Below are positions 2,833 through 63,201 of a stretch of DNA of 64,000 nt, piece after piece. Position numbers and translations under genes: made by a program. The DNA is from Azadirachta indica (taxonomy: Eukaryota; Streptophyta; Magnoliopsida; Sapindales; Meliaceae), in assembly GCA_022749755.1 (NCBI GenBank), contig CM040444.1:4529009-4593008 (forward strand), in the 5' to 3' direction. The notes under the pieces were generated by a model, which did no database searches, had not been told where the DNA came from, and worked only from the letters and a program-made list of their open reading frames with translations. Position 1 is the first letter of the stretch, and the number at the start of each line of letters is the position of its first letter.

Positions 2833-3589
2833 ATGGATTATTTTCGCTGCAGCTGCTTCAAGAGTGTAAGAATTATTTCTGCTATTTACCTTTGATCTAC
2901 CCATTTTACTCATTAATTAATAAATTTTATTTTATTTTTACTTGTCTTATATAGAAATCATCTGATCATCAGAATGAATTCAACAAAGAAGAAGATGAAG
3001 AGAAGAACAGTTCTAAGCAAGTAGTAAAATTTTATTCATATGTACCTATATAATTGTTTTTTATTTTTCCCAACAACTTATTTGCCAATTTTTGTATTTA
3101 TTATATTGATTAAAAAATTAATTAAATTTATTTTCCTTTTTTCTTTAAAATTGTAGAATTTGTGGTTTGTATTTGGTAAACAATACAGTACATTAAAGTA
3201 CGATATTTTATTTTCAATATTGTATATATGTGTAAATTGTATGGATATATTTTTTATACGGGTCTAATCCAAACCCAAATTTAACCCGAACTCAACCAAG
3301 CCCAAAGTATATATTTGAGCATTTAAAAAAAAAACTTGTAATTGATTTTTTCTTTATTTTAGTGAAAATTGACTGCTCTCCCTCATGTAGTTTTTCCCTT
3401 GAAAATTTTAGAAAATTTTCATGTAAATTCTGTGTTATTTTATAATTATTTTGATTTCTATTTGTTTTGGTTAATTAAATTTCATAACAAAAACTATACT
3501 TGGATTTTAATCAATTATATCTCATATGGCTTTAACAATATGAGAAGGCTGTTGGCAGAACTTCAAAGAAAAGAAGCATGCAAAACCTA
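2833..3589 (+). pseudogene. micro-exon gene A, MDY type, truncated
   Basis: Exon 1 (2833-2865) encodes MDYFRCSCFKS and is followed by GTAAGAATT. Exon 2 (2955-3023, after TATATAG) encodes 23 residues beginning KSSDHQNEF and rich in Glu and Lys, then GTAAAA. Both introns are phase 0. Exon 3 should match the one in copy E (25954-26040). It is recognisable from 3542 (AAGGCTGTTGGCAGAAC), but about 50 bases are missing inside it and its donor site is gone, because the sequence runs AAACCTAATAAAATT where E has AAACCAGAGGTATAT. The last exon is absent: the region matching E from about 26400 to 27450 is deleted. The function of the family is unknown. This copy looks dead unless the first two exons are used in some other way. 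Confidence 0.6.
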
Positions 3590-3599
3590 ATAAAATTAC

Positions 3600-5390
3600 A
3601 TAAATTTATTTATTTACTTTTTCTTATCTGAGTGTTAACTTCGGTTCTTATTTATACTTGAATTTTTATTAATTTTTATTTTTATTGTTGGTGAGATTTA
3701 CGTGCCTGAGTTAAATATTGAGTCTTTTTTTTATCGTATTATTATAATTAATATAGTATTAGTTTTTTTCCTAATGAATTAAGTAGAGTGATTTTACTAT
3801 ATACAAATTTTTAAATATTTAATGTATATATATATATATAAAAGAAAGGATCAATAATTCTATACTTTTTTATACATATATTTAGATTTATTTATAAACC
3901 GTTAGATGTATAATATAATAAAAAGAATTTTTAATAATATTATAAATTGTATCATATGGACATTTTAAAAGTTAGACATAACACAAATGTAATAAAAAAA
4001 TATTAATGTGCTTGAATTTTATAAAATAGATACATTTGTCTATTTCTATGTAAAAGTGTATTAAAGTTAAGTGTCTCTTATAAAAGATATCATTTTCAAA
4101 AAAAAATATTCCAATGTGTTATGTCACAAGTCCAACTTTAATCAATCAACTTAAAATCTTTCAATAAAGTAGAAAAATAGAGTTATTTTTAGTTTTGCCT
4201 CCTAATTTATTGATATATATTAGATATTACTATCAATTTATTAAAAGTCTGTCATTTCATCTCTAAACGAGGAAAAAATGATTATTTCACCTTTTCTAAT
4301 TAAAAGTAAAAAGAATAATAACATTTGAGTCACTGAACTTTTTTTAAATAACAAATTAAGACATACTTTAATTAATTTTAACATTTTAATTCTTAGTATT
4401 ACATCAATCCATTAAATAATAATAAAATACAAATTTACCTACACTGATTGAATTTAAATGAATACTTTAACTATTTATTTTTAATATAAAATATAAACAT
4501 AAAACTCTAATCTACTGCTTCTATTGCCACCTTTCCTCTCCTCCCATCTTCAAATATGTCACCATTATTATCACCTCCATTTTTATTTTTTTATCTTTTC
4601 TATTATCTTTTATTTTTTCTCTCTCTATCACTGTCTTAGCCAAGACCATCGCCATTGTTTCTTTCTCTTTTTTGCAAATACAAATTTTTTACAAATTATA
4701 TCCAAAAAATTATCGATAAAAACTACAATAATTGCCCAAGCAATTCCCTATCATTTTTGTTATTATTTGTTTTCAAAAATTATGAATTAAAGTCATGTAT
4801 TGTGAGTTTAAGTTTGTTTTTTTGATGATCTATCTCTTGAGTAGCTTTATAAACGATTATGAGGAGGACAATAGCTGAGATAGTAAAAATTAACAATAAA
4901 AGAAAAGAGTATTTAAAACTAGAATAAAGGATTTAGTTGATGATGAGAAAATAGTAAGAGAAATTGATATATTTTTTTAACAAAAAAGGGCGCATGAGAA
5001 GTTGATATATTTTTTCTGACAAGAAATCCTTTGAATTTTTTATTAAATTTAGTAAAATTGGTTTTTTAATGTTGGAGGAAAAAAGTGAATTATCTCTCAA
5101 AAATTTTAATGGATAATGATAAATGTAATAGCAATACAGTAGGGACTAAAATATTATAATTGGTCAAAAGATATCATTATTTGTTAGTTTGTCAAAATTT
5201 AGGGCATAAAATTATATTATCTCTTTTTATTTCTAATTTAAAAATAAAAATAAAATAATTATTTTTATGTTATTTAGGAGTGGAGTGATAACTTTCAATA
5301 AATTGGTATTATTTTTTATGTATATAAAAAAAATTAGAGAGAAAAATTGAAAATAACCAGAAAAATATTCCTCGATATTTTTACCCTCAC
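3600..5390. other. A-B intergenic DNA with a MITE-like insertion
   Basis: 3600-3860 and 3955-4180 align with the DNA after copy E (about 26070-26360 and 27460-27660), and 5390 onward aligns with 27685 onward. The stretch from about 4185 to 5325 is absent from the E-F block. Its ends are weakly inverted: TATCAATTTATTAAAAGT near 4230 against the complement of CTTTCAATAAATTGGTAT near 5295. It looks like a non-autonomous DNA element of about 1.1 kb. The 88-codon frame at 4524-4790 inside it is low-complexity and I do not call it a gene. Confidence 0.45.
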
Positions 5391-5621
5391 TCAATTAATT
5401 CCATTAGCCAAAGGCATCGTATACCCAACAAGAATTAATTTCATGGAATATATTCGAGGAATGTGTAAAATATAAGCATTAAAGTATTCATAATGATAGA
5501 AATCAGAATTATTGATCAAGCTAGCTACTTCATCGCCTCCATTATACAAGCTCTAGCTTAATTTCTTCTCCATTAAATAAATTAATTTAATTTCTCTTAG
5601 CTCTTGACGAAGAAATTAAAC

Positions 5622-6920
5622 ATGGATTATCTCAAATGTTGTTTAAAAAGTGTAAGAAATTTCTGCAACTATTATTTTTTACAACTTCAATTGTATGCAA
5701 ATTATTTAAATTACTCATAAAATTTTTTCTTAGTTTGTGTAGAAATCAGCTGAGAATAGTGAATTGCAAGAGGAGAAAAAATCTAAGAGAAGGGTAAAAT
5801 TTTATTTATAATATTTTCTCCCTTTTTTTGGGTGCAAATTAATTATTAATTGTTCTTATATTCATTGAAAAATTAATTGTCAATTATTCTTATATTCATT
5901 GAAGTCTTAACTAACTAATTGTATTCATTCATTTATTTATTTAGTTTTCCTTTTTGTGTTCTTGAACTTTTATTAACTATTTTTTCTCATAGACTGGTCA
6001 TAGAATTTCACGGTTAGTTGCCCTGGGGAAGGCACCACGTGGGACTGCAGATAAGAAGGTATTATTTTGACGAAAGGTTATATTTTTAAAATACAAGTAA
6101 TAAAAAAAGTGTTTAAAATTGGTTGTATGTGTTTAAAATTTATTTTTAAAATAAAAAGTATTTTTTTAAATTTTAACTTAAAGTGAAAAATAATTTTTTT
6201 TGTTGTTTTGAACCATTTTTTAAAAATTTATTTTTAAATTAATTACTATTTTGTTAAAACAATTAATTTATTAATTTTTGTAAACAATATTAAATTCATT
6301 CTTTTTTATTATAAAAAGTTATTTATAACGAATAATTATAAATGTATTTTCTGTTTTTAATAATATCAATTTTATAATTTTAAATATACCATTTAAAAAT
6401 GTTATTAAATAATTATTTACTTTTCCCTTATTTCGGTTTTAATTAACTTCAGTTGATACATGTTTTTGTATTTTCACTGAACTTGAGTTTTTTAGATAAT
6501 AACATTCAGGCCTCTAAAACTTCAAATTTTTATAAGAAAGATATAATTTTTTTTTATAACAAATAAGTCCCTAACTTCTTTTACAGTAACAAAATTAACT
6601 TTACGATATTGAAATTTGACCATCACAGCAATACAATATATGAATTATCATTTAAAAGTGCTTCATTCATTTTAATAGCAATTACAAACCCATTTATTAC
6701 AAATAATGAAATTAAATTTTAATTTGTAAAAATATAAAATTTTAGAAATCTAAAAAATCTATTAATTGTTATACATTTTTTATAACAATGACTCTACGTA
6801 ATATTAATAATAGTTTTTTGTGTTATCATTTTTTTTTTTATCGTTGTTGTTGTTGTCATCGTCGCTTACAAAAAGAAGGTAGAGAAGGAATTCAAGCAAG
6901 TGAAAGAAAAGAGGAATTAG
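5622..6920 (+). CDS. micro-exon gene B, small basic protein of unknown function
   Basis: The model has four exons joined by phase-0 introns and predicts 63 residues. Exon 1 (5622-5651) encodes MDYLKCCLKS, then GTAAGA. Exon 2 (5743-5793, after TTTGTGTAG) encodes KSAENSELQEEKKSKRR, then GTAAAA. Exon 3 (5993-6058, after TTTCTCATAG) encodes 22 residues including RLVALGKAPRG, then GTATTA. Exon 4 (6876-6920) encodes KVEKEFKQVKEKRN and stop. The last acceptor is the weak point: the homologous TAG seen in copy C is TCG here, so I used the next AG (ACAAAAAG), which keeps phase 0. The product is strongly basic, Cys-containing at its N-terminus and otherwise likely disordered. A Cys pair after MDYLK could be acylated; that is inference. 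I do not recognise the family. The paralogue F at 28832 confirms the exon boundaries by conservation. Confidence 0.55.
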
Positions 6921-7640
6921 GAGATGGATAGAAGTTGATAAGATCAGTAAGCATGCAAAATAAGCTTCTAAAGAAGAAATTCAAGCTTGAAATAGAAGAA
7001 ACCACAATTGTTCATAAATTTTAAATGTTAATTAAAGTAATTGTACATATTCTTTCCAAATATGTTATTATTTATGCTTTAGTGTGAATTTATCTGTCAT
7101 TCACCTTTCTTAACATTTATCCTAAATTTTTTATTTAAATGGCATGGAAAATTATATTTATCATCAAATTATTGAACGTATCATTTAATGATTCAAAGGA
7201 TGATTCAGCATGAGTTGATGATAGGTCAATTAAATTTAAAAATTTAAGTTAAATTTTGTAAGGAATAATATTACCAATTTTTTTTAATATTACACATTGA
7301 TTAAACTAATTTCTTCAAAATATAGTGTAAGTCAGATTTTATAAATTCCAAACTTATTTTACCTTCTTGAAAAACAAAAATTTATATTAGTTAAAAACCA
7401 ATTAATACCTTAATAGTACCACTTAATTAATAGGATATCAATAAATAGGTACATAATCTCTAGCAAAACAATAAATAAGAACATACTTGATTACGCATAA
7501 CAAATAGCTTCTTCAGGTGACATAAGTGACACTAAAAACTAACTAAAACTATGGACCAATTCGTTAAAATTACTCAAGTATATTCTTATTTATTGTTTCA
7601 CCAAAGTTTAAAGACCTATTTATTAGTATCCCCTTAATAA
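6921..7640. other. 3' flank of gene B
   Basis: This non-coding AT-rich DNA aligns with 30149-30850 after copy F. No gene is seen. Confidence 0.6.
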
Positions 7641-7644
7641 ATTT

Positions 7645-9680
7645 TAGAGTAACTACATTAAAGTCTCTAAATTTTAGCTAATTAATTTAATGAGTCCTAC
7701 TAATTTTAAAAGTATTCTTAAAAGTCCTAATCTGTTGGTGATCGTATAGATTCTCGTAGGGCTGACGGCTTGAGTCATTCGAATTGGAGATTAGAGAGGA
7801 ATATTATACAAAATTGAGGATCAGATGAGGCTCAAGTATAATTTTCATCCCCGTCCTCAAAATAGCTCGGGGATAGTGATGACCCTTTTTACCCGACTCG
7901 TCCCCGATTCGAAAAATAATTTGAAAATTGTTCGGTTAAATTATAATTGTATCAATATTATTTAATAAATAATTATAGAAGTTTAATATCTCTTATTTTA
8001 GTCAATCAAATCCTTCAAAAAAGTTTACAATTTTTTTAATTTAATCAATTAGGTCTTTCACATAATATGATTATATTTTTTTTTAAATCTTAAATTGTTA
8101 ATTATATAGATATATATATAAATCCTAAAATAAAAGAAAACCCTCACCTTCTCTCACAACCGCCTTCAAAATATTTTTGTACAAAATATATAAAAAAATA
8201 AAAAACTCTAAGATTAATTTAATATATTTTCTAAACCTTATTAATTCTATTAAAAATTAAATTATAATTTACTACTACACTTATTTATTTTTCTATTTAT
8301 ATAGGTTAATGAAAAATTATAGTAAATGAATCAATCAAATTTGATATTTTATTCTAACAAAATTTTTATTAGCTGCAATATTTTATATAAATTATCTAAA
8401 TCAAATTGATGATTGTTGTCAATTATTTTATTTTTAAAAATTAATTTACGAAAAAAAAAATAAATATTTATTATTATTATTATATTATTTTGATAATATC
8501 TGAAATAACAATTTCACATATGAGAAATTAATTATTTTATAAATATATATAAAGGGAAATCTCGAGATTTAAAAAAAAAGTGAGTTGCTCTCACCTTTCT
8601 ATCTTCTACTCACAATCACTTTCTATTCATTACAAGTGAGAATAGTTTTTGTAAACTTGAATTACTTAGCTGATTATTAATGTTATGTACAAGATTTTTG
8701 ATTTTTTTAATTTTACAAACTTTTGACATTATTTTTGTGATACTTACAATTTCTATAGATATGTTCTTTATTTTTGAAAATTTTATATTTGTAATCAAAT
8801 TTATATTATTAGAATTTACAAATTATAATATTAAAATAGAATTATTGTTCCTTCAAATAATTATAAAGAAAAAAATAGTAATAAAATTATATTTAAATAA
8901 TTGTTAACGATATAATTAATGTTAAATTACACAATTATTTTATATTAATAATAACAATTCAAAAATAATATTTTTAAATGATATAAATTAAATACGTGTT
9001 CTTTATTAAATATATTTTATTCACATATTTGAATAAAAGAATGAAGTTGATATAGTGGTGAGATAATTATTTATATTTTTTTAAGTTTAAAGTTCAAATT
9101 TAAACAATTACAAATTCTTTGTTTTTAAGTATAAAATCGAAACAGGATCAAAGTCGTGTCGAGAGCTTGAGTTGCCCAAATCGAAGATGGGCCAGAGATT
9201 CCTATCTATCCCTGGCCTGTTACCATCCTATCGTCCGTTACTGAAAAAACTTGATCCATAAAATTCAATCTATATTATGCATCCTCTCTTCTGATACATT
9301 TATCAAACAATCACCAAATTCTCTTCAGCCACATAGCCAAAGTAATGGGGCAGTGGTCCTTCTTCTTTCCTAGGACTGTTATTTTATTTAGTTGACTTAC
9401 ATATTTTATTTTTAATTAATAAAAATGCAAAACAAATATTAATGGACAAATAGAAAAAGAATAAAAAAATGTTGGCCAATAGAATGATGACATGTCACAA
9501 TAAGTTGGCAGCCATGTTATAATATCTCAGTCATTATCACTAAAAGATGTCAATTTATCATCTTATCTATCTTTCCATCCAAATTCAGTGTACAAGTAAC
9601 CGACTGAAACTTTGAAGGATAATTTTGAAATTAGTAGAACTTATGCGATTAATTGCTAAACTTTAGGGACTTTAATGTCA
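7645..9680. mobile_element. non-autonomous DNA transposon, about 2 kb, with TIRs of about 55 bp
   Basis: The left end (about 7653-7705) reads CATTAAAGTCTCTAAATTTT and continues to CCTACTAATTT. The right end (about 9625-9678) is its inverted complement with few mismatches: AATTAGTAGAACTTATGCG through TTTAGGGACTTTAATG. The whole interval is missing from the homologous F block near 30850-30890, which supports insertion. The interior holds a C/G-rich patch (7830-7910, with CCCGACTCGTCCCCGATTCG) and another near 9150-9235, but no transposase frame. I could not define a clean target-site duplication. Confidence 0.65.
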
Positions 9681-11600
9681 TTCAATATCATCTCAAAACA
9701 TTTTACTAATTAAATTAACTAATACCCTCAATAATATTACTCAACTATACACACTGAATAATATATATATTTATTTATTTATATACATGCATACACATAG
9801 ACCCCAATTTATACTTAACTAATTACATGAACAAAAACTAATAAACCATGAATATAAACCATACACTTGTCCAATCTTGCTGCAAAAATGGAGCTCAATC
9901 TTTAGACCTCTTGTATTACACCGAACTCTTTCTAAGATCTTTCTGTAAAATGGAATTGAATTGATCAAAAAACTTCTTGAACAAATTCATATAATTAGTA
10001 CCCACAAGAGGATTACTCAATTAGTTTGAGCACACATGCATTATTTATCTTATGGAGTGGTAGTTAGGTACATACTTTTTTTTTTTTTAAATCTTAATTT
10101 AAAATTTTGAACAAATTCTTAACAATTCATTTAATTTAGTTTCATATAATATACTTAAGAACGAAAGTACAAAGGTAAAATTTGATGTTATTAATTTAAT
10201 ATTTGGCAATGGTAGTACTCACTTTTTTTTTTTTCACAACGTCCAATGAAAGGTTTAATCATCATCATGTGTTTATTATGGGAATAGATTTCTCCGTATT
10301 GTAGATTTAACCCTCAGTAAGTGGAGTAGAATCCTCGACTTAACTAGTTTTGTCCTCTTTATTAGTTAAGAGAGTGATTACTGTTTACTTAATTTTAAAC
10401 TTTTTAAAATAAACATATGTTAATAATTTTTTAATTAATTTACTCTATTCACTTTAAGGGTCAAATTGATATTCTATTGTCAAACAAAACTTCTTGAAAT
10501 ATATTTTTATGAGTAAAACTTTTGCAAGTCTGCTTTTTAACAAATTGTTTTTAATTATGTAGTTATCAACAATTACTTTTCCTAAAATTTGTATTATTTC
10601 ATTAATAAATATTTTAAAGTATATCTTATGAGAAGAATAAAGTAAATATTTCTCATAAACTAAATATGTAACAAATAGATAAGGGTATTTTAGACAATTG
10701 ACTTTTTATAAGTCTAATTTTAAATTTCTCTTAATATAAGTAAACAATTATTTTTAAAACTTAAGAAATTATTCCTTTGTTAAGATCAAATAAATGACAA
10801 TAATTTTTTTTTTAAAATTTAATATTCAAAATGCTTTTTAATTAGACCCTAAAACATCATGTCTAACTATATATAAACGAAAATAAGACATTTTATCTTA
10901 ATAACTCATTATAAGTTATAAATTAATTTTATCTCCTGATTCATTCAATAAAAATATTAATATTTTTGAGTTAGGTAATTTATTTGAACTACTGCTGAAA
11001 TGAGCTAAATTTTAAGGGAGTAAATGAAATTATACCTAAATAGAAAGATATTTGCTGAAGTTAATATTGTCTTGGTTATTCCTTATAATGTGAATCACGG
11101 CTTCTCTTGTTGCAAAATATAACTGGAATAAAGTAGTGTCTTTTTTGAAAAATATTCTCCAACATAGAATTTTTAAATATTTGAGGAATTTGAATTACTT
11201 TAAATTTTAAGATCTTATTAAGATTCCTTTGTAGAAAAAGGTTAGCTAACTTAGACCATTCATTTTGTTTTTATCCTTCTTTTTCCTTTTGAAAGTTCAA
11301 TCACCTTTTTTATTTTTCCTACGTTAGCAACTATGATGTCATAGTCTAACGATATGAACAGATCAATTTCATGGTGTGACTAAAAAGAGAAGAAAATAAA
11401 TTAATTTTGTTATATAGAAAAGAAAAAAATATAAATTAATTTCGTGCTTGTTTCCACATATCCTATTGGAGAATTTATATTTTTGTAATTTATTAATATT
11501 TTTCTTTTAAGAATCTATAGTTTATCCTAAAAGCCAAGATTTTTTTGAAAAAAATTTATAGATAATATTATCTAAATTACTTTTGCGTTGCTTAAAACCA
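9681..11600. other. B-C intergenic DNA, duplicated in the F-G interval
   Basis: The region aligns with about 30890-32660. Shared landmarks include ATAATTAGTACCCACAAGAG (9993 and 31197) and GCTAACTTAGACC-type words (11243 and 32340). No coding frame is supported. Confidence 0.6.
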
Positions 11601-11601
11601 G

Positions 11602-12230
11602 TGTAAGAAATAATGTATTAAAATTGATCTCATTGAATTAAAATTATGATATGATAAAAAAATATTAGGTATAAATAGATAGTAAACAAAAAATACAAAA
11701 ATAATAAATAAGATTAGAGCAAATAAGAATTTATTTGGTTCAGCAAAATTATTTACATTCATAGAGCAAATACTCGTAAGGTCTTTTCATTAAAAGTAAA
11801 AGATGGAATCTTTACAAGATGACTCTTTTCTCCAAATTAACTTCTTCAAGTTTCTTCCTCAAATACATAGTTTTTATAATGCCTCTAAAAAATCTTAATT
11901 CAAGTAGATTTTGGAATCATAATTTAGGAAAGTTTTTGGTATCCTAATTCAAGAAGGTTTTGGTATCCTAATTTAAGTAGATTTGGTTATTTCCAATTTT
12001 TCGGGTTCTCGCGTCCTTGGGTTGTTTGTCACTTATCCTCTTCAAGTCAAGATGTCAACTTTATCTTGATTTCTTGGGCTCTCAAGATCTCGAGTTCTCG
12101 AATATCGTGTCTAAACTTCTTTAAGTCAGGATAACAATTTCACCTAAACTCTTTAAGTTCTTGAATTTCCGAGTTCCCATGTTCCTGAATTCCCATGTTC
12201 TTGAATGAAGTTTCAAATTTACATGTTTGG
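11602..12230 (-). repeat. copia element 1, 3' LTR (left)
   Basis: It is similar to 16109-16657: both contain the ATAAATA-GTAAACA, ACAAAAATAATAAATAA and GGTTCAG stretch, then repeated GGTTCTTGG/GTTCTCG words. The exact ends are uncertain by about 25 bases. Confidence 0.7.
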
Positions 12231-12411
12231 TCCTTTCATGATGCATTGGATTTCTACTTAAGTGAAACATACTTTAATTATTATAATACACTTTAACTCA
12301 CTTCGAGATAGACCCAATTCTCTTGCTAAGCCTTTAAGCCGTAATGCTTCCTTTATTGTATCTGCTACTACAACATACTATGCTTTTGTTTTTGATAAAC
12401 CTACAACATGT

Positions 12412-12729
12412 TTAAGTGTTTCTTTTTAGCAAATTTGTGCAATTACGTAAAGAAGACGTATAACTTGTTATGGACTTTATCTTATCCAGATCCCCTACAA
12501 AGATAGCATCAACATATCCTTCCAGCTTTATCTGATCATCTTTAAATATTTTGTACACTAGAAAAAATTTAGTATCTCTAAGATACCTCAGAATCCATTG
12601 AAAATCCTGCCTATGACTACTTCTAGAATTAGCCATGAATTTATTAACCACACTGCTAGTGTCTATAATGTCTAGTCTTCTACATATCATTGCATACATA
12701 AGGTTTTCTACTATATTTGCATAAGGCAC
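12412..12729 (-). pseudogene. copia element 1, RT C-terminus/RNase H fragment
   Basis: The 105-residue frame has the copia hallmarks PYANIVENLMYAMICRRLDI, WILRYLRDTK, LEGYVDA and GDLDKIKSITSY (the family has GDLDxRKSTSGY). It is the part joining reverse transcriptase to RNase H. It is followed downstream on the minus strand by 12400-12290, with more broken RNase H sequence. Confidence 0.88.
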
Positions 12730-13620
12730 TAATTCTATTTATTTCTTCTCATCTTCTATTTTTGGACTTTGAGAACTCTAGAACTTAAGTGAGATACCAG
12801 AGGTTTGGAATTTTCATCCTCAATTTCTCCAGAACCTTCTTGATGTGCTTTCCTTGTGACAGAAATATTGATCTCTCACTTTTGTTTCTTTTCAATTCAG
12901 TGCCCAACTTCTTCCTTGCTAGCCTTAAATCCTTCAGTTCAAAAGTTTCGTTCATCTACTTCTTCAACTTATCAATCTCAGCCTTGCTTGGACAAGTTAT
13001 CAGTATGTCATCTGCATATAAGAGTAGATGAATTGTTATGCCATCTTTAGAGTTTTAAATATATACAATTGTCATACATGCTTTTGATGAAGTTTTACTT
13101 GATCATAAATTCAACAAATTTTAGGTACTATTGCCTTGGTAATTGCTTGAATACATAAAGTGACTCTTTGAATAAACACATCGTTCTTCTTTCTCGAGAA
13201 CTACAAATCCCTCACATTGAGTCATCATAATATTCTTTAACAAATCATTATATAAGAAGGTTGTCTTTTCATCCATTTGTTTAAGTTTTAAGTCTTGAGA
13301 CGTGACATGTGTTAAAAGTACTACTGATAGAGCTATGTTTCACCATTGGATAAGCACTTCTATGAAGTCTACCCCTTCTTTTTGAGTGAAACTTTTTGCA
13401 ACGAGTTTGGCCTTACACCTCTTTGGCTCGCCACTTTAAATGCACTGCTTAATTTTATAAATCCATTTGCACCCAAGAACTTTCTTATTCTTGGGTTTGT
13501 CAATAAGTTGGCTAATTTTATTTTTTTTTATCAAAGACTTTCTTTCTTCTGCATAGCTTTGATCCATCTCTCTTTACAATTGGAAATTATAGCTTCCTTA
13601 TAATTTGTTGGTTCTTCATC
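12730..13620 (-). pseudogene. copia element 1, reverse transcriptase remains
   Basis: On the minus strand, about 13025-12870 encodes LLYADDILITCPSKAEIDKL, with the YADD catalytic motif of copia RT, followed by LKDLRLARK and later LSQGKHIKKVLEKL. Farther upstream (13600-13350) broken copia RT sequence continues. Frames are interrupted. The plus-strand frames over this stretch are antisense shadows. Confidence 0.8.
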
Positions 13621-14036
13621 TATGACTTCAATTGCAACTATTAGTGCATATGCTATTATCTTAGCATAACCAAACTTATTTGGAGGTTTAATTGTCCTCG
13701 TTTTGTCCCTTGCTAACTAATAATCATCAAGATCATCCTAATATGTTTGTTTAGCTTGTTCTTCCTGTCAAGTCTTATCTCATTAGTCTAAGTTGTATTA
13801 TGACCCTAGGTGTCTAGAACCCGAGATTCCAGTGTCTGCTCCACCTCAATCTAAAGCTTTTCAGATTTTGGTTCTATTGTCTGGTTATTAATTGATTTTT
13901 TTTTCTTTTTGATAATCAAGTAAAGCTTTTTCATGAAACTTTACATCTCTACTTAGGATGTATTTTGATGGCTTAAGTGAGGGACAACAAAGCTTATATC
14001 CTTTGAAACCATTTAAATAACTAATAAACACATCTT

Positions 14037-14720
14037 TTATTGTTTTAGCATTAAGCTTCCTTTAATTTTATTTGTGCATAGGCAGGGCAAATAAAAATTT
14101 TCAAGTGATTGTATGATGTTATATGCATAGGCAGGGCAAATAAAGATCCTCAAGTAACTATATGATGTTTTTTTTCCAAACCATATGTAAATAGGAGTTT
14201 TAAGCCCAATTCGTATTAATGGACTCTTATTTACAAGATATGTTATTGTCATCAAAGCTTCTGGTCATAGAGACTTTGGAATCCTTGATTGCACCAATAA
14301 ACATCTTACCTTCTCAATTAATGTCCTATTCATCCTCTTAGCAAGACCATGTTATTGTGGAGTCATTCTCACAGTTCTATGTCTTGAAATGTCATTTTCC
14401 TTATCGAAGTTCTTAAAATTTTGATTGCAATACTCTAAGCCTTTGTCAATCCTTAGCCATTTTATCTTTTTATCTGCCCAATTCTTCACTTGGAACTTGC
14501 TATTTAAATTTCTCAACCACTTAATCCTTAAATTTTAGCACATATACCTAAACCCTTCTTTGTCAAAGATAGAAAAATATTTTGAACCATCTAAGAAACG
14601 GACTTATGAAGGTCTCCACAGATTTTAGTGATCCTTTTTGTTTTGTGCTCAATAATCCCAAATTTTACTCTTGTAGACTTTTTTAAGAGACATTCTTCAC
14701 AAAAGTCTAATGATTCAATC
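14037..14720 (-). pseudogene. copia element 1, integrase fragment
   Basis: The minus-strand frame 14255-14037 reads TYLVNKSPLIRIGLKTPIYI, then FGKKTSYSYLRIF, as in the C-terminal side of the copia integrase core (YLINRSPS...KTPEEVWSG...YSNLRVFGCPAY). Broken integrase sequence continues up to about 14720. A short internal duplication (14081-14168) disrupts it. Confidence 0.82.
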
Positions 14721-51519: not shown

Positions 51520-51742
51520 GAAAACACATTGCATCATGGAAAGGGTAATATACCCAAGGTCTAGTGCTTTGAATCTGATGATCAAATTGAGCCATCGGTA
51601 AAGTGTCAATGATAACTTTTTTCTTGTTAATTTTACAGGGTTAATTTATTTTAGTTTGTATTAATTTTATGATCATTTTGTTTTGTTGTTCTTATTGCAG
51701 AAGACATCCGATGAGCAAAAAAAGTCAGAAGATAACGTGTGA

Positions 51743-52379
51743 GATTGAGCAATGGTAGCTTAAAATGCCATAATCAAATAACTTCCTCAATTAACGGTGG
51801 ATAATAAATATCATATATGCAGAATGACTACGTTCCCTGTGATGAAAATTTCGAACATCATATATGTACAATAATTAATAGTATTTGGTTTTATACGATA
51901 TTTTTGTTAGGTTGTGATTCCAAATTCTGACTTGGCTTGCCGTGAGATAGATTTATGCCAGCTTTTTAGCTAGGATGCATCAGTTTTTAGCTGGCAACTG
52001 GGTTATATAGTTAAGCAAGTAAATTGGAGAAATCAGTTAGGAGTTGGTTAAAAGTCAGTTCTCAACTACTTAGATTAGAGCACAGCTTTTTATGTTAGTT
52101 ATTTCTATTACAGTTTTTTATTAATCAAAAGGAATACTAATTTTATTAGAATGGGTAAAAGGTTAAAAAAAAAAGGTGGCCTGAAGGAATACAAATAAAA
52201 TCAAGTATCAAAGAATAACATGAAATTTAAAATCTATTGCTTGACATACAATCACTGGAACCTGTGCTGACTGACTACGAGTGAAATATCTAGAAGTGCC
52301 AACAACAATTCCTTTCTTCTTTACGGATTTACGCACCTCCATCTGCAAATCATCATTGCCTTCAGGCCTCTAGCATTTT
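51743..52379. other. 3' flank of K
   Basis: 51743-51910 matches 63202-63370 after J (GACTACGTT.CC, ATATATGTACAATAATTAATA). 51950-52370 is not in the J flank and holds no recognised gene. Confidence 0.55.
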
Positions 52380-52985
52380 CAACATCAGGAGACATGGATA
52401 TGGAGTTAGGGTCACTAGATTGTCATCCATACCTGGGGGGAAGGCGAAGGACGTTTAGCTCCAGTTGGTTGAACTTTTCTGTAGAAGCACATGTATCAAA
52501 AGAAGCAAAGTTGGTCAAATCTACACAAATTGTGGATCCTTGGAACCTGTCATGTAGAAGAAATTTTAAATGATTTGGAATGAGAATCACTCAAACGTTT
52601 TGCTTGACTGATTACCATTACAACTCGCAATTTCAATAGAAGTCCCACATCTATAGGAGAGGCCGATCACCAATTATAGATCATCGGCACTTGCTGTTTA
52701 GAATTCATCAATTTTTGTGATGAGTTAGGTTTATCAGAGCTACTACCTGAATCATTTGCATTTTCAACATGATTGGCTCGTTCATGTGTAGATGGGTAGA
52801 CTTTTTTTGGGTGGTACATTCCTATATAGTAGTAGAATCTTTCTGAGCTAGGCTAGGAACCACTTTCTGAACAAATGTCTCATCAATAATCTTTGGTTCT
52901 TTGTGAGTTGAGGTGGATTGAGAGTTTTGACAAGGCGATAAATCTGACGGGTTAACTTGAGATTCGTTTAGCATTCTCTTACATC
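52380..52985 (-). pseudogene. unknown coding-like fragment, copy 1
   Basis: On the minus strand, phrases such as HKEPKIIDETFVQKVVPSLA followed by QKDSTTI, and EKFNQLELNVL followed by RLPPRYG and QSSDPNS, appear with stops between them. The segment is a diverged copy of 63375-64000. Ser, Asn, Asp and Gln are common and the base composition is richer in G and C than the surroundings, so it probably derives from a protein gene. I do not recognise the protein. Confidence 0.4.
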
Positions 52986-53873
52986 AAAAGTTTAAAGCTA
53001 GATATTAAATGAGATGAGCCTGACGATGTTGTATCCTTGATGAAAGGAATTAATTAAAAATTAATCTGCCTTTCTTTTGAAATATACCATCTTGTAGGCT
53101 TAACTTGTTTCTGATACTTGACTACTTTGTTGGTACTGTTCTACTAGCTAATTTCTGCTATTGTTAGTTCTAAAGAACTGAGGTTGTTGGCTTAGTTCTT
53201 CATTTGTTGTAGCCAAAAACCATTACAATTTTTCGTCTTTTTTTCTTATAATAAGAATTAAATTGATATTGATATAACTAGAAGACGTTGTATTATATAA
53301 TGTTATGATTTCAGTTTGAAATACGTTAAGTTACATAATTAGTTAGTGGCATGTTATTGCCAAATTTCTAACTAGACGAACAGAAAGCATTGTCTATTGA
53401 TAATGATTTTCGTCGATTTTGACCAAATTTTATTATTTTGAATTCAAATTGCATTCGAAGTAATTGGGAGCTGACCTTCTAATGCAATTTTCAATATTTT
53501 AATTTTCTTCCTTTATAAAATTTTGTCTTTTTGAGAATCTTTTATCACTTTTGCTAAGTTACTAGAAGATATAAGTTTTACATGTATACCAAATATATTT
53601 ATTTCATTTTAATCAATAAATCTTCCTCCCATCTGAAAGGCCGAAACTAAATTTTGACAAATTCTCTAATAATATTGACAATTGTACCAATCTAAAGGCA
53701 TTTTCGTATTTAACATGGGAATTAAATTAATTAAAGAATATTATGTGACCTTAAAAATGGGATCATCAAGAAACAAAATAACACTTATTAATCAGAAACT
53801 AATTATTTCTCCTTCATTTCCATAGAAAATTCTTTCTTCTCCAATTAAAGACTCTCTTTAATTAGCTTCACAA
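52986..53873 (+). other. 5' region of copy I
   Basis: 53230-53470 matches the stretch before K and J (TTCTTATAATAAGAATTAAATT, ACTAGACGAACAGAAAGCAT). 53690-53873 is a J-like promoter (TCTCCTTCATTTCCATAGAAA in place of TTCATCCGCTGCATATATTA), without a clear TATA. Confidence 0.45.
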
Positions 53874-54011
53874 ATGGGCAATACCTGCTGCTTTGAAATA
53901 GAGACAGAGCAGGTTTTATATTGGCTCTACTTTTTCTCATCGTGCTTTCTGTTATTAAAAACATCTTGGGTTTTCAGCAAGGTTCCTTACCTTTTGCCTA
54001 CCTTGGTGTAA
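53874..54011 (+). pseudogene. micro-exon gene I: MGN start fused to an L1 fragment
   Basis: The ATG lies where H and J start, and the frame reads MGNTCCFEIETEQ before running into L1 DNA in a non-L1 frame. There it continues as a hydrophobic stretch (VLYWLYFFSSCFLLL) to a stop at 54009-54011, 45 residues in all. No GTAAG donor follows the seventh codon as in H and J. Gly2 with Cys5-Cys6 would suit myristoylation and palmitoylation. All downstream exons are missing, so this is either a broken copy or, less likely, a chance chimeric peptide. Confidence 0.45.
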
Positions 54012-54285
54012 ACATTTTTCGAGGTAAACCACAACGTTGTCATTTACAGCCTCTTGTGGATCGGATTAAGTCTAAGCTTGAAGGTTGGCAAGGAAAAATT
54101 CTATCTATGGTAGGGAGAGTTCAGCTTGTTCATTCGGTGATTGAGTCTCGTTTACTTTATAGCTTCTCCGTGTACAAGTGGCCAACTTCTTTGATTAAGC
54201 TATTCAATAGCTGGTGCAGAAATTTTATTTGGTCAAGGGACTGTAACACTCGTAAAAAATTATTAATACTTCAATTTTAAACATA
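53910..54285 (+). mobile_element. L1 ORF2 fragment (RT C-terminal part)
   Basis: Frame 53921-54280 reads ILGFQQGSLPFAYLGVNIFR, then DRIKSKLEGWQGKILSMVGR and VQLVHSVIESRLL, and ends NFIWSRDCNTRKKL. This is the standard plant L1 stretch GFxxGxLPFxYLGVPIF...KLxxWKGxxLSxxGRVxLVxSVI...NFIWSG. Both ends are truncated and no tail is visible. Confidence 0.92.
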
Positions 54286-55366: not shown

Positions 55367-58300
55367 ATGGGCAACTGCGTTGGAACCGTAAGAATTTTCT
55401 TTAATTTATTTTCAAGTACTTTCATCTTGTATGAAACTTTTGTAATTAACTTATCTTAGATTGTATTAATGATAAAATTTACTTTTAATGAATTGTTTCT
55501 AGTTTGTTTTAAAATTGATTTTGTTTCCAATTTTATTTTGTCTTTATATTTTCTGCAACATGATGATGACAATTGATTATGGCTTCCTTTTTGTACTTGT
55601 TTGTTGATGATGAAACTTAAAAGACTACTGAAAATAAATCATCCGAGAAGGCATACACCACACTAGCTCAAGAGCAGAGAAAGCTCGAGAAACTGGTATT
55701 TTTTTTTTTAAAAAGTATATTTTCCTTTTCTTTTTCTTTTTCAGCTTTTTGGCAATTTATTACATAAAAAATTGATGGTATTATTGTTGTGGTGGTGACG
55801 AAATTCTATAGCCTCCAGGGGGAAGGGTGAGAAGGATTGCCAAGAAAAAGGTAAAATTTTATTCCTAAAATGTATAGTTAAGTTGCTTTATTCCTTATTC
55901 TTGCTTGCCTTTCGGTTTCATCTTTAGTTCTCAAACTAATCTTTTATTGATTGAACGTTCACTAACTTAACAAATAATACAATATATATGAATAGTGATT
56001 GTTGAATTGTATTGTATTATAATCGTATCGATAAGTGTGAAGAATAGATACTTCAAATTTAGGAGCTAAAGTTGGCTAAGACTCAAGTATCTTTGATCTA
56101 AAGTAGACAACTATGCTGATTGAGAATCCGAAAATCTGAGAAACCAAGAAGTCAAGGTAAATTTGTCATTTTGACTTGAGTCAAATCGACTATGGCATTT
56201 AAAAACCTGAGAACCCAAAAACTCTAGTAGTTAAAATGGAGTTACAGTGACTCCATTTTAAATAGAGAACGTAAGGACACAAGGACTCTAAGCGGGTTTG
56301 TTATCTTGACTTGACGAACATTAACTATGAACCCAGAAACCTAAGAACCGAGCACCCGAGGAACAACCATTAATTTGAGTTAATTTTTTAAGGTTTTTTT
56401 AGGGGTATTTTTTTAAAAGACCAAAAGCATTAAAAATGTCCTACGTTCAAAAGAAATAAGAATAGGGTGGAGATTTTAGTGGAGATAGTTATCTTGTGAA
56501 GATTTTATTTTCTATTTTTAATGAAAAGAGCTGAAATATGTTTGTCTTGTGGATGAAAAGCAATTTTACTTAGCCATGTAAATCTTTGGTTATTTTTATC
56601 TTTATTTTGATCTTGTTTGTTATTTTTGTTTTTATGTTTATTCTCTTGTCAAACCTTGATAAGGTTTCATCAAGTAACAATCTTGATTTAATCAAATTAG
56701 TGTTAAGGCATTGTTTGTAAGCTCGAGTTTTACTTTAAAATTGGTATTAGAACTAAAGTTCCCAGTAATAATGTTTTTAACTAACTTTGATATGAAGAAA
56801 TTCAATGGTGAAAATGACTTTAACTTGTGGCATATGAAGATGAGGCTAATTTTAGTTCAACAAAGGTTGAAGGATGCTTTTGAAGGATAAGGCAAGATGG
56901 TTCATACAATGAAAAAAGCAAATAAGAGAGAGATTCTAAGGAAAACTCATTTTGAAATTGTGCTAAGTTTGAGTAATGATATTTTAATGGAAGTTTCAAC
57001 AAAGAAGATTGTAGTTGGGGTTTAGAATAGCGTAGATGCCATTTACATGACTAAATCTTGGTCAATAGAATATGCTTGAAGAAAAGATTGTATATTCTTA
57101 TTATTGATTTTAAAATAATAGAAGTGAAAATTAAAGATAAGAAGGGGATAATCTTATTGAGTTTTTTGTGAAAATCATAAAACCATTTTGTTGAGACTTT
57201 AATATACGGTCAAACCCCACTCTTTACGATAAATGCTAAGATAGTTCTGAACTCCAAAGAATTGATAAAAAAGCAAGAAGGGAGAAACTCGAGCATAACA
57301 AGAGGGAGACCAAAAGAATAAGAGAATATGGGTACAAAACATGTTAGATCCAAGCCAAACACCTTAAAGTGCTTTCATTGTTAAAAAGAAGGACATTTAA
57401 AGAAAGACTATCTAGAAAGGAAGAATAAGAAGAAGGTAAATGGTGATACAACTATTAAAGATTGCTTCAAGTCTGGAGATATTTCTTATTATATAGTACT
57501 GACACAAAAGGTGAGTCATTTTAGTTTCAAGTTGTTCTTTTAATATGCTAACTTATTAAACATATGGTGGGGATAAAGTATTAATGGTTAAGAATAAAGT
57601 ATGTAAGATCGTTAAGATTAGTAGTATCAAGATTAGAATGTTTGATGAAATAGTAAGAGAATTGTATCAGGTTAGGCATGTACCAGACTTGAAAAGAAAT
57701 TGAATCTCATTGGGAATATTAAATTAGCATTCAAGCTAAAAATGAGAACCTAAAGTAGTTAACAATTTTATGTTACTTATGAAAAAAGTAAGGAAAAATA
57801 GTTTATATATCTTGGATGGATCTGCAATTACTGGTTTAGTAACTAAAACAACAAGGTTTGATAATAGCAAGACTAGATTGTGGCATATAAGTTAGACCAT
57901 ATAAGTGAAAAATCATTAAAGGAGTTAAATAAACATGAAACGTTTGGTAATAATAAGATTTAATGATTGTGTTTATGTAAAGAATGTGTTAGGGACATTT
58001 ATAAGAGTTTGGAATTGTTAATCACAAAACAAAAAGGATCTTGGAATACATTCTCTTAGATTTAATGGGGACCTTCACAAAGTTAGTCCTTATGTGATTC
58101 AAAGAAATTTTTATCCTTGATAGATGATTGCTCTATAAGAGATTTGTTAAATATGTTAAAATCTAAGGATTATGTGCTTAAAAAGTTCAAGAGTGGAAGT
58201 TTCAAGTAAAGAATCGAATAGATAAAAGGGTGAAATGGCGATGAGTAACAATGGTATAGAACATTACAATTAGAAATTTGATAATTTCTGTATGAAAAGT

Positions 58301-61300
58301 AGTATTTTAAGACACAAAAATTGTGAGAATAATCCAACAACAAAATGGTATTTATCAAGCAATGAATAGGATGTTTGATTGAGAAGGTCATATGCTTATT
58401 AGTGCATTTAACGATTTCAATGTTTTTGTGGGTAGAAGCTTTGATGACAACAACATATCTTGTAAATATATGTCCATCAATAATAATTAAGCTCAAAACT
58501 TCTGTTGAGATGTGGTATGGGAAGAAGTATTATATAATCACTTGAAAATCTTTGGCTGCATTGTCGTTGCACATAAAAATCAATGGAAGTTAGATGCTGG
58601 AGTAATAAAAGGTGCATTTTTAGCTGTCTAGAGGGTGTAAGCTTTAGTGTCCCTCACTTGAACCACCAAAATGTAGCCTCAGTAGAGATGTAAAGTTTTA
58701 TAAATAAACATTACTTGATCTTCAGCCAGAAGTACAAAATGATGATGACTAGAAATCATAACCAAAATAAGAGAGACTTTAGATTAAGATAGAGTAGACA
58801 CTAGGATTTTAGGTTCCAAACTCTTCAATTAGAACACAACTCAGATTGATAAAAACAAGACTTAATAAGAAGAATAAGTTGAAAAAATAGGTTCGATATG
58901 CTTTTGATGATTATCAGTTAGCAAGGGATAAGACAAGGAGGACAATTAGACCTTTAAGTGGGTTTGATTATGTTGATATAATAGTATATATATCATGATC
59001 CATACTATTAATGAATATGTATGGCAATCTAGATCACTTAATTTGTAGAATAGATATTCATACGTATTAATCATATGCAAGGAAACATATTTGAATTGAA
59101 GTCATAGATGAAGAACCTATAAGTTACAAGGAAGCTATAAATTTTAACCATAAGTGAAGATAGACTAAACCTATGCAGGAAGAAATCTTTGATGAAAATT
59201 GAACTTGATAACTTGTTGACGACTTAAGACCAAGATGTTGTTGAGTGCAAAAGGATTTATAAGATCAAGAAGGGTATTTTTTTGTTTAAATCAAAGAGTT
59301 ATAAGGTCGAGCTCATTGCCAAATGCTTTGCTTAGAAAGAAGGTTTAGACTTTAGAAGTGTTTTCTCTTATGGTAAAACATAGCTTTATTATAGCACTTT
59401 GTATCTCAGGACTTGAAATTTAAGCAAATAGATGTTTAGGAATATTGTGACAACTTACCCTAATTGATTTATACTCTTCGAAAAAGAAAGATTAGCTAAG
59501 TTTATTAAAGAAGTCACATTATGGCCTCAAATGATCAACAAGGCAATAGTACTTGAAGTTTGATGAATTTATGATCAAGTAAAACATTATCAGAAGTAAA
59601 TATAACAGTCGTGTATACTTTAAAACTTTTAAGGATGACATAATAATTCTTCTACTCTTATATGTATTTGACGTATTGATAACTTGTCTAAAGAATTATA
59701 AGATCGATAAGTTGAAGAAGCAATAAAATAAAGCTTTTGAAAAGAAAGGTTTAGGGCCAAAAAAGAAGACTTTAGACATTAAGTTAAAAACATGTAAAAA
59801 TGAAAATCAATACTTTTATCATGAGAGAATCATAATAATGATAGTTCTAAAGAAATTTGGGATGCAAAATTCTAAATTAGTCATGACACCTCTAACAACT
59901 AACTTTAAGCTCTTAAGTTGAGAAAGTTGATGAGGAAAAAGAGATGGAATTAGTATTTGCAATACTAGACATTGTCTATGTTTTTATTATGGTTCATAAG
60001 ATCATAGCTAATCTTGAAAGTAATCATTAGCAAATTGTAAAATAGGTTATGAGGTACCTTATAAGTGTAAATGAAGTTAGTTTAATGTTTTAACATCTAT
60101 AATGAATTAGATGAAGTTGTAAAAATATGTTACTGCAAACTTTGCAGGGGATTTAAATAAGAGTAGGTCCATAACAAGTTATATATTTTTTTCATGTGAT
60201 GTATAATCAACTAGAAAGCCGCACTTCAACATGTTACAGCTTTATCAACAATAAAAGTAGAGTATGTTGCAATAACAGATGCAATAAGGAAAACATTGTG
60301 GCTCAAGGGCTTGATAGAAGAACTAGGCTTATTTGAAGAGTATGTTGTAATGCATTATGATAATTTAGAGTGTGATTCACTTGAGCAAGATTCTAATACA
60401 TCATTAAAGGTTTAAACATATAAATCTTAAGCTTTATTTCATAATGGATCAAATTGCCATAGGTTGTAGACTTGGTGACAATATTGTTAATATACTAATA
60501 AAGTTATTACTGAGCACTAATTTCAATTTATGTATGAACTTGGCGAGTATCGACAGCTTATAAGGACGTTGGTTTAAGCAAGAACATGTAAGAGAGGGAA
60601 AAATTAGAAGCAAGGTAGAGAATTGTGAAGATTAAGTGCTTCAAATTCTAGAGTTAAGGTTGGCTGAGACTCATTAATCTCTAACTTAAAGTAAACAACT
60701 ATACTAACTAAGAACTATAAACCTATAAAACTAAAGAGTTAAGGTAAAGTTGTCATCTTAACTTGAGGAGGATCAACTATAGAATTTGAGAACTAGAAAA
60801 TCAAGGACCTAAGTAATTAAGATGGCGGTCGTATTGCCTTGAGAAGGATATGCTATGGTATCCAAAAACCAGAGAACCTGAGAACTTATGGACTTAAGGA
60901 CCTATGTGAGTTTGTTATCCTAATTTGAGGAAGATCACCTATGATATTCAAGAACTCAAGAAATTACCATTAACTTGAATTACAGTCTTTCAAAGGTGTT
61001 TATGGGTATTATTTTTATCAAATACTAAAGGCATTGTGAAATCCTGCATTATGGAGAAATCGGATGTGGAGATGACTTTAGTAAAGAGAGTCATCTTGTA
61101 AATATTCTATTTTTTAATTCTAATTAAAAGATTTTACATGTACTTGTTCCGTAAACGTAAGCAATTTTGCTTAACCACAAATTCTAGGTTGTTTTTATAT
61201 TTTGCTTTGATATTGTTTGTTATTTATGTTTTTGTGTCCATTTTTTGGTCGGACATTGATTTATAAGGTTTGGTTAGGATGCAATTTTCGTTCAATCAGA

Positions 61301-63201
61301 TTAGTGTTAGAGCATCATGTATAAGATCAAAATTTTCCAATAATAAAGATTTAGATAATAATATTTAAGATTTAGAAACATCTCACATAAAAGTTCGACA
61401 TTTCCCATGTAAAGCTTTGATTTTATTTAATCGATTTGTCATATGGTTTCAAATAATTAAATGAATAAAAGATATTCAAATCCGTAAAGTTGAACATAAC
61501 TAATTTAAATATCCATTAAAATATAATGATGGAGCTCAGTAAGGCCTACAATGGCCTTACCCTCCAAATCCACAGGCAAGTTTAAAATATACAATTATGT
61601 TTTTACAATTTTAGTCTTAAACATAATTTCTTTTTTTACCATTTCTATGCAGATTTTTTATGTTTAGGTTTTGACCCTCTAAATTTTCTTTTGATTTCGC
61701 CACTATTTATATATAGCTAAAATATAAATAAGATAATAAAAATAAAATATATTATAAAATAAGTAAATTTATAATATATTAATAATATTAGATTATCATG
61801 TGCTATAAATTAATATTATTTATTTTATTAATGTATTTTAGATCACTTTATTATATTTACTAAAATTTAAATATTTAATAGTTACTTGTACTAAACAATT
61901 ATAGGAGTATATTCAATTTTTTTTGATAAATTTAAATTTTGATTAGTATTTTTGAAATTATTAGAATTAATAAGTGTAATAATCCAAACTTATCTTGAGA
62001 ACTTGGATGCCCTTTACCCTAATTAAATTGTGGGCAATGCTATCGTCACTAATTTTCCAAAGTTCTCTTTAAATTTTAATCTTAGCCAAAAATTACCTAA
62101 CAAATTAAATAGTTTACATTTTTTAGAACTTTTTACACCACCAAATATTATATTTGTAGTTTATTATTTTACGTATCTTTTTGACTTCCACATATTATGA
62201 TTTTTTTCTTTTTTAAACCAAAAATTTTCTATATCTACGTGTGTTAATTACTTCTATAATTACTAGATTTTAACTCTCGTTTTTTATTTTTTTAAACCCT
62301 AAATTTCTGTCTGTAATTGTGTGTGCACCTATGTGCATGCATGCATGTATGTTCGTGATTTATAAAAGTTTTTAATTGAGAAAATACTAATACTGTATTT
62401 ATTAATCGGGATACAAAAACCTAGAGAAATAAAATATTTTATGTAAGGGTTTATAAACAATACAAATGTTATTAACATGAGTATGAGTAACATTTAGAGG
62501 GTTTGCATAACAGCAAAAAGAAAAAACGAAAAAAATTGAGAAGATCGAGATTCAATGAAGAAAGGAGACAATAAATGCCATTTTTAGAGCTAAACAAGGT
62601 GTTATATATATATATATATATATATATTTATAGTTTTAAGATGTTTTAGCACAGAAAATTAAAAAAGGTTTTAAAAGAATTTTAAAGGAAGACAATAGTA
62701 TCATCCATAAATTATGTTTCTTTTATATCGAGTGAATACCGTTTAACATTCCCCTCACATGCAACCTTCATTCTCCATTACTTGGGCAATCGAATTGCAT
62801 TAAATGGAAATTTTACAAGGGTCCAAATATTTATAATTTAATTGTTTTGAATTTAGACATGTTTAAGCATTTTTCTCGCATGATATAAATTTGTCTTTGT
62901 GGATCTAACGATTTGAACACTATATTAAAGTATTATTTAACCTAAAAATTTAAACTTAAAACTCCACAGGAAAACACGTTGCGTCATGGAAGAAGTTCTA
63001 TGCCCGATAACCAATCTCCTGAATCTGATGACGAAAACTGCGCAGCCATTAGTAGAGTTTCAATGATACTTTTGTTTCTTTGTTTTATAGATTTATTTTA
63101 ATTTGTATTCATTTTATGATCTTTTTGTTTTGTTGTTGTTATCGCAGGAGACATCTGATGAGCAAAAAAGTCAGAAGACAACGTCTGAGATTGAGAAATG
63201 A
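55367..63201 (+). CDS. micro-exon gene J, MGN type, with a copia element in intron 3
   Basis: Exon 1 (55367-55387) encodes MGNCVGT, then GTAAGA. Exon 2 (55624-55695) encodes 24 residues, starting TTENKSSEKAYTTLAQEQ and ending KLEKL. Exon 3 (55812-55850) encodes PPGGRVRRIAKKK. Intron 3 is about 7.1 kb and holds copia element 4. Exon 4 (62970-63051) starts ENTLRHGRSSMPDNQSPE; it has four extra bases near its end, so its donor (ATTA|GTAGAG) is phase 1. Exon 5 (63148-63201) would encode ETSDEQKSQKTTSEIEK in the old frame. In the shifted frame it stops after RDI at 63158, predicting 74 residues. MGNC with Gly6-Thr7 is a good dual acylation start (myristate on Gly2, palmitate on Cys4), suggesting membrane attachment; this is inference. 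The large intron and the frameshift make expression uncertain. Function unknown. Confidence 0.5.
56036..56740 (+). repeat. copia element 4, 5' LTR
   Basis: Starts TGTGAAGAATAGATACTTCA and pairs with 60624-61340 (TGTGAAGATTAAGTGCTTCA). Contains repeated GAGAACC-AGAA words like the LTRs of element 1 in complement, and is followed directly by the primer binding site. Confidence 0.8.
56771..57520 (+). pseudogene. copia element 4, gag
   Basis: Starts MFLTNFDMKKFNGENDFNLW (56771), then KMRLILVQQRLKDAFEG and a stop. UBN2 fragments (THFEIVLSLSNDILMEVSTK) and a zinc knuckle with a stop in it (CFHC*KEGHLKKDY, near 57370) follow. The minus-strand frame here is a shadow. Confidence 0.82.
57540..58640 (+). 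pseudogene. copia element 4, protease/integrase remains
   Basis: Contains IVRELYQVRHVPDLKRN, NSLYILDGSAITG, a pre-integrase stretch (KTRLWHIS), and the broken integrase phrase KKDLGIHSLRFNGDLHKVSP. Then follow MWYGKKYYII and later LSRDVKFYK before RT. Confidence 0.75.
59100..60560 (+). pseudogene. copia element 4, RT and RNase H remains
   Basis: Broken RT reading includes RIYKIKKGIFLFKSKSYKVE and LIAKCFA, and KEGLDFRSVFSYGKT. The RNase H part reads ALSTIKVEYVAITDAIRKTL, then WLKGLIEELGLFEEYVVMHY (60240-60360), a strong copia match. Confidence 0.82.
60624..61340 (+). repeat. copia element 4, 3' LTR
   Basis: Pairs with 56036-56740. The two LTRs differ at many positions, so the insertion is old. 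Confidence 0.8.
61346..62969. other. distal part of J intron 3
   Basis: 61530-61600 has a short palindromic patch (AAGGCCTACAATGGCCTTA), a possible MITE end. A GCATGCATGCATG run lies at 62334-62347 and an (AT)n run at about 62603-62627. 62700-62969 matches the corresponding intron of H and K. No gene is seen. Confidence 0.45.

Follow-up and report, generated by a model that had tools for sequence, protein, structure and literature searches.

Tandem micro-exon genes for small charged, putatively membrane-tethered proteins in neem (Azadirachta indica), with relatives in Melia azedarach

A 64-kb stretch of neem DNA (C5:4529009-4593008; hereafter the window, with positions counted from its first letter) carries a row of very short open segments bounded by GT and AG. 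Do these segments form genes built almost wholly of exons of 20-90 nt, and if so, what kind of protein would such genes encode? An original prediction, made from the letters of the window, had read them as a row of micro-exon genes, each encoding a small, charged protein of unknown kind. Our analysis partly confirmed that observation and partly supported its interpretation. The reading that we favor, with a probability of roughly 58%, is a Meliaceae-restricted family evolving by birth and death, whose members would assemble small, disordered, membrane-tethered proteins from in-frame exon cassettes. We infer splicing in neem, and the lipidation, membrane location and function of the products, from sequence. 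Genes of this build are easily missed by gene finders.

Gene models and their Melia homologues

The window contains nine copies of the gene family with at least two exons, and three fragments. The models are as follows:

Exons 2833-2865, 2955-3020, 3545-3631 (+): copy A, 61 aa, MDYFRCSCFKS...
Exons 5622-5651, 5743-5793, 5993-6058, 6876-6920 (+): copy B, 63 aa, MDYLKCCLKS...; last acceptor picked by eye
Exons 16849-16869, 17168-17215, 17327-17356, 17467-17532, 17652-17825 (+): copy C, 112 aa, with a 51-nt tandem duplication in the last exon
~21053-21132 (+): fragment, 5' remnant of an A-type copy
24653-24724 (+): fragment, remnant of an E-type last exon
Exons 25664-25699, 25954-26040, 26598-26648 (+): copy E, 57 aa
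Exons 28832-28861, 28952-29002 (donor lost), ~29161-29228 (degenerate, with a stop), 30104-30148 (+): copy F, probably a pseudogene
Exons 32914-32934, 33216-33269, 33385-33426, 33548-33625, 33758-33811 (+): copy G, 82 aa; last acceptor by eye
Exons 45421-45441 (MGNYLGT), 45743-45814, 45935-45973, 46423-46491, 46594-46620 (+): copy H, 75 aa
Exons 47198-47266 (donor lost), 47363-47401, 51520-51597 (in-frame stop), 51701-51742 (+): copy I, a pseudogene with exon 1 missing
53860-53898 (+): fragment, first exon (ATG at 53874) of a copy of MGNTCCFGS type
Exons 55367-55387 (MGNCVGT), 55624-55695, 55812-55850, 62970-63053, 63148-63201 (+): copy J, including the segment predicted as gene K

A tandem micro-exon family was found as predicted, at a lower count (nine units plus the three fragments) than the at least eleven genes announced. 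Three subtypes occur in the window: A/B/E/F (MDYxxCxC... or alike), C/G (MPWCFGE / MCWLFGT) and H/I/J (MGNYLGT / exon lost / MGNCVGT). The predicted first exon of 21-36 nt with the start codon was recovered in A, B, C, E, F, G, H and J, where an ATG is followed by GTAAG or GTAAA. The predicted GT-AG exon chains hold at every modelled junction of A, B, C, E, G and H, and these six of the nine copies are intact to the stop. The chains fail in the three damaged copies, F, I and J, through lost donors, stops or a frame break. In J, a GT at 63052-63053 lies two bases inside the modelled exon 4; its use leaves an exon of 82 nt and breaks the frame. Copy E contains an A-type exon (~25786-25851) without an acceptor AG and is in frame when this exon is omitted. 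The last exons of B, F and G depend on acceptors chosen by eye.

The 37 modelled exons of the window range from 21 to 174 nt (21 of them ≤51 nt, 33 of them ≤81 nt), and every one is a multiple of three, apart from J exon 4 if its GT is used. Further copies (among them d0, d1, d2, d5, d6, d7, u1, u5 and u10-u13) lie outside the window, in a distal array that was read in part, up to C5:4697102. Those with a GT-AG exon chain open to the stop are d1 (MGNSQGT, 72 aa), d0 (MGNTCCFGS, 73 aa), d5 (MGTSLQT, 137 aa, seven exons) and a shortened d2; d7 was modelled in part, and many further starts have few recognizable downstream exons. In d5 and d7, symmetry resides in exon pairs rather than in single exons. 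Exons have been lost, gained and duplicated between copies: d0 is without the H-type exon 3, one exon pair occurs two times in d5 (50+85 and 50+88 nt), and in d2 exon 1 lies near exon 5 after an apparent deletion, so that d2 would read MGNSQGTKISDE*. With exons or exon pairs in multiples of three, cassettes can come and go and leave the frame unharmed. The same symmetry makes exon skipping that would yield variant proteins possible.

A profile search, such as the original prediction had proposed for related plant genomes, was run here against proteins and gave the strongest support for the models. When a profile of six spliced proteins was compared with 5.77 billion proteins (783 candidates scored), a single match at E<=1 was obtained. 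This was the hypothetical protein OWV82_012338 of Melia azedarach (72 aa, E 9.7e-18), a member of the same family with the same five segments collinear with d1. The product of the five-exon d1 model, also 72 aa, aligns with it gap-free at 60 of 72 identical positions (7/7, 14/19, 11/13, 23/26 and 5/7 by exon), and H is 58% identical to it over its length. A second profile (two candidates) matched solely Melia OWV82_012335 (E 1.1e-7; BLASTP, 68% over 91% of the query). By eye, this protein parallels d5 exons 3-7, including a Cys-rich tail; it belongs to the same family, but the deposited protein is without the Met-Gly first exon. The locus tags of the two relatives are three apart, their contigs are of equal size, and both are named merely "hypothetical protein". 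An M. azedarach genome paper describes RNA-seq of seven tissues and cites a splice-junction tool among the references (PMC9976607); the OWV82 tags may belong to that genome.

The gap-free match to d1 supports the splice models independently. It also decides against chance, that is, GT, AG and short open stretches put together by eye. AT-rich DNA is rich in GT/AG pairs, short exons hold little information, and one wrong frame is also mostly open. Among the ten models scanned, the own frame has no stop or the final stop only, and frame +1 contains only 0-4 stops each (frame +2, 0-14). The open frame by itself is thus weak evidence, and the Melia match carries the case: a spliced-protein profile retrieved a protein that aligns with a five-exon model throughout, which leaves chance a negligible probability. 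As judged from two word-based protein searches, the family would be restricted to Meliaceae. A keyword literature search limited to the combination of tandem, myristoylated microexon genes in plants found no description of them.

First exons, protein type and known systems

Across the array, 26 first exons were aligned. An ATG stands at or near the aligned place in 23 of them, Met-Gly follows in 15, and 12 fit the myristoylation pattern G-{EDRKHPFYW}-x-x-[STAGCN]-{P}. Inside the window, Met-Gly is limited to three of the nine starts, those of H, J and the 53874 fragment. The GTAAG donor and the leader ahead of the ATG recur widely among the copies, also in those that have lost the ATG. First exons encode 7-12 residues and, by inspection, no hydrophobic leader. 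Charged residues make up 29-47% of the proteins, and by the charge-hydropathy line 13 of 13 sequences are classed as disordered (B, F and G as partial sequences). An AlphaFold prediction of OWV82_012338 alone (mean predicted local distance difference test score, pLDDT, 66; predicted template modelling score, pTM, 0.14) fits disorder, as weak evidence given that no alignment was used.

On the favored reading, each gene would consist of a similar 5' leader, the 21-36 nt start-codon exon and one to six short exons, and would encode a product of ~57-137 aa when complete, with a charged and probably disordered body. The first exon would dock the protein at the plasma membrane, on its inner face, through myristoylation alone or together with palmitoylation. 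As a loose binding surface, the short charged body might act as an adaptor, a decoy or a charge-based binder of lipid or Ca2+. In-frame cassettes would be gained, lost and duplicated between copies, and the array would turn over by tandem duplication, transposon insertion and decay. The family offers a testable case of an anchor exon common to diverging bodies. Only the analogy to other fast-turnover arrays and to PCaP1 points to a role in immunity or signalling.

The original prediction likened the design to the micro-exon genes (MEGs) of schistosomes, in which exons are symmetric and alternative splicing makes variant proteins. The likeness holds for the architecture (tiny symmetric exons, tandem expansion and transposons in introns) and fails for the protein type, which has no secretion leader. 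The MEG-like symmetry is present in the window exons, J exon 4 excepted, and 33 of the 37 are of a size found in MEGs, whose exons range up to 81 bp. As described in two papers, MEGs share with the neem genes very short exons amid longer introns, paralogue expansion and transposon enrichment, and show raised ratios of non-synonymous to synonymous substitution rates (dN/dS) (PMC10526429, PMC4350168). According to one of these, their products are secreted and most of their micro-exons are 15 bp (PMC10526429), whereas the neem exons are 21-174 nt and the starts are 7-12 residues long with Met-Gly or Cys. The MEG likeness is a structural analogy only; no sign of a shared ancestor was seen, and none was looked for. 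A tentative idea, less probable than the reading favored here, would make the array the plant equivalent of MEGs: in a Meliaceae-only array, a lipid-anchor exon and its leader would be rejoined time and again to changing sets of in-frame micro-exon cassettes, giving rapidly diversifying, inner-membrane-tethered disordered decoys or adaptors in immunity or symbiosis. Plant microexons are generally single ones inside larger genes, unlike genes built almost wholly of them. Those of MEPDB (up to 51 nt) are of the same size class and are often missed by annotation (PMC12409088, PMC8831610).

The genes might instead be diverged relatives of the DREPP/PCaP plasma-membrane cation-binding proteins. The plan would be similar: PCaP1, on which elicitor-induced immunity depends, is a charged hydrophilic protein of the plasma membrane that is N-myristoylated at Gly2 (PMC8457133). 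However, the DREPP/PCaP domain (Pfam PF05558) had no match in the models scanned (A, F, I and J not singly), and its eight genome matches all lie on C12, with a first piece of 114 nt. With no domain match and another chromosome, this identity was rejected, with a very small residual probability. Heavy-metal-associated (HMA/HIPP) genes, a first guess, were rejected for want of a Pfam match. The CCCC tail of d5 and OWV82_012335, seen in the d5 type only, looks similar to that of CYSTM cysteine-rich tail proteins. Pfam CYSTM was unlisted for both proteins at E up to 5, a range in which HMMER filters drop most matches >0.1, and the candidate was rejected.

Substitution patterns and competing explanations

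The original prediction held that exons are kept while introns diverge. The identities of exon and non-exon DNA were 0.80/0.84 for C/G, 0.79/0.78 for H/d1, 0.77/0.77 for H/J, 0.79/0.72 for d1/J, 0.85/0.84 for B/F, 0.82/0.80 for A/E, 0.76/0.70 for H/d0, 0.75/0.67 for d1/d0, and 0.85/0.86 and 0.76/0.84 (p=0.04, exons lower) for the two I/J stretches. In the other nine of these ten homologous stretches, p was ≥0.107. Exon identity was never significantly above non-exon identity, contrary to the claim; exon substitution no different from that in introns is also one half of what the original prediction had named as refuting it, the other half being a lack of spliced transcripts at every copy. The compared pairs and stretches share copies or overlap and are not independent.

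By the Nei-Gojobori method (NG86), dN/dS was 1.57 for C/G (p 0.48), 0.55 for H/d1 (p 0.10), 0.44 for H/J (p 0.057), 0.33 for d1/J (p 0.025), 0.47 for I/J (p 0.21) and 0.43 for H/d0 (p 0.12); the H group spans 0.33-0.55. Of the comparisons named beforehand, C/G gave a ratio above 1 and H/J one below 1, neither significantly so. Among 14 gaps inside exons, 8 are multiples of three; for non-coding DNA the figure is 26 of 107 (p=0.022; overlapping stretches, not independent). In this count, three gaps across exon edges (3, 3 and 4 nt) were scored as non-multiples of three, and the codon-aligned dN/dS alignments, which force exon gaps to threes, were excluded. Together, the gap and substitution patterns indicate that architecture and frame are held, and sequence only weakly.

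Besides the nearly stop-free +1 frame, several results weigh against the family reading. In nine of the ten stretches, exons and non-exon DNA have diverged equally, and in the tenth the exons have diverged more. Of seven dN/dS tests, a single one gave p<0.05 (d1/J, 0.025), and in C/G and B/F dN exceeds dS, not significantly. Copies d6, u1, u5, u10, u11 and u12 are broken, as are F and I, and J exon 4 is frame-shifted. A, B, C, E, F and G are without Met-Gly and have Cys within the first eight residues instead. The ATG-less u10 and u11 have a similar leader and first exon too, so recent duplication may account for the resemblance. Pfam gave nothing above the cut-offs in the models scanned, and no domain supports a function.

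Much of this would be expected if the array were largely a graveyard, with one or two functional copies (d1, d5, perhaps d0 or H) kept in Melia and the rest recent relics that retain exon borders. Exon conservation no higher than that of introns, the broken frames or splice sites of F, I, J and several downstream copies, the +1 frame nearly as free of stops, and the retrieval of two Melia proteins only would all fit. However, no modelled splice site is lost in C, G, H, d0, d1 or d5, and their frames stay open for 72-137 codons; non-exon divergence is 16-33% in pairs among C/G and H/d1/d0 (d5 left out). We consider relics of this kind a possible but doubtful account of the array.

Diversifying selection, as in an arms-race family, would let amino acids outpace silent sites while the architecture is held, and is compatible with the family reading. 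C/G differ by 31 non-synonymous and 5 synonymous changes; B/F differ by 12 and 0 in exons 1-2, and by 21.5 and 1.5 when exon 4 is included. The pooled non-synonymous rate of C/G and B/F (exons 1-2) exceeds that of introns (p=0.048). Tests of dN against dS were not significant for C/G (p=0.48), B/F (p=0.11 for exons 1-2, 0.36 with exon 4) or the pool (0.15), F is probably a pseudogene, and the H group has dN/dS <1. Such selection was rejected as the main explanation on the dN/dS tests, and we regard it as unlikely.

Extent of the array, transposable elements and setting

The family of in-frame micro-exon copies runs well beyond the predicted span of 2833..63201. In a genome search of 280.8 Mb (21 contigs), the array extended over ~164 kb from A (C5:4531841) to u13 (C5:4695539), on a single strand of a single chromosome, and reached ~C5:4695.6 kb, 103 kb beyond the window end. 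Nine of the 26 aligned first-exon units lie inside the window. The presence of so long an array, with 26 such starts, in the genome of a tree suggests that plants may hold uncounted families of small membrane-tethered proteins. Intact, decaying and transposon-split copies stand side by side, which makes the turnover of symmetric micro-exons traceable.

The 32 matches of H gene DNA in the whole 281-Mb genome fall at 4545.8-4695.6 kb of C5, each on the + strand. C5 is also the only contig matched by B-type DNA (4 matches) and A-type DNA (3 matches). With DNA of C, 14 matches were obtained, of which three lie in the array and 11 are short ones elsewhere (C5, C9-C13, C19) that we read as repeats. 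For d0, 40 scored candidates yielded 92 matches, mostly to a dispersed repeat located in a d0 intron, which has many genomic matches; the gene parts of d0 match on C5. Within the window, A-B-C and E-F-G form a block duplication (matches 2664-18703 vs 25522-36284).

Two features outside the gene models are needed here:

1..2004 (+): 3' part of a leucine-rich repeat receptor kinase gene, presumably BAM3-like, beginning upstream at ~C5:4526498 (open reading frames, Pfam kinase); a neighbor outside the family
56030..61328 (+): old Copia-type long terminal repeat (LTR) element in J intron 3; LTRs 56030-56724 and 60618-61328, 66% identical

The segment 62970-63201, predicted as a separate gene K, corresponds to exons 4-5 of J, split off by the Copia-type element. 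Copy I is built like J, with the same exons 2-3, a relative of the element in intron 3, and exons 4-5 at 51520-51742; the relic in I is 77-80% identical to the J element in the main matches. Since I and J share both the exons and the Copia relative, the insertion is probably older than the I/J duplication.

Other repeats lie between the copies. An antisense Copia-type element (12204-16277), resembling that of the J intron, is located 5' of copy C. A broken Copia-like element (36846-42383) has repeat-like ends (36846-36900 and 42321-42383) and weak matches to a Pol beta-barrel and integrase. A ~600-bp repeat, 83% identical, stands behind the last exons of I and J (52374-52977 and 63394-63999). 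Immediately behind the first exon at 53874, a fragment at 53897-54280 was labelled by eye as long interspersed nuclear element-like; Pfam gave no meaningful match for it.

EF-hand-like genes or exons occur at C5:4651416-4662185 among degenerate copies, with further matches on C10, C7, C14 and at 3.4 Mb of C5. An origin of the family from myristoylated EF-hand genes of the distal array (exons C5:4651416, 4656176, 4661985) was rejected; of these exons, the one at 4656176 reads as a self-contained frame. A homologue search with the EF-hand-like exon at C5:4661985 found none.

The array comes after the BAM3-like kinase on the same strand. A BAM-like kinase and a DREPP gene are each present at two places on C12 (~0.47-0.51 Mb and 6.21-6.24 Mb), ~5.74 Mb apart and with equal or nearly equal scores; these twin loci are a possible assembly duplication.

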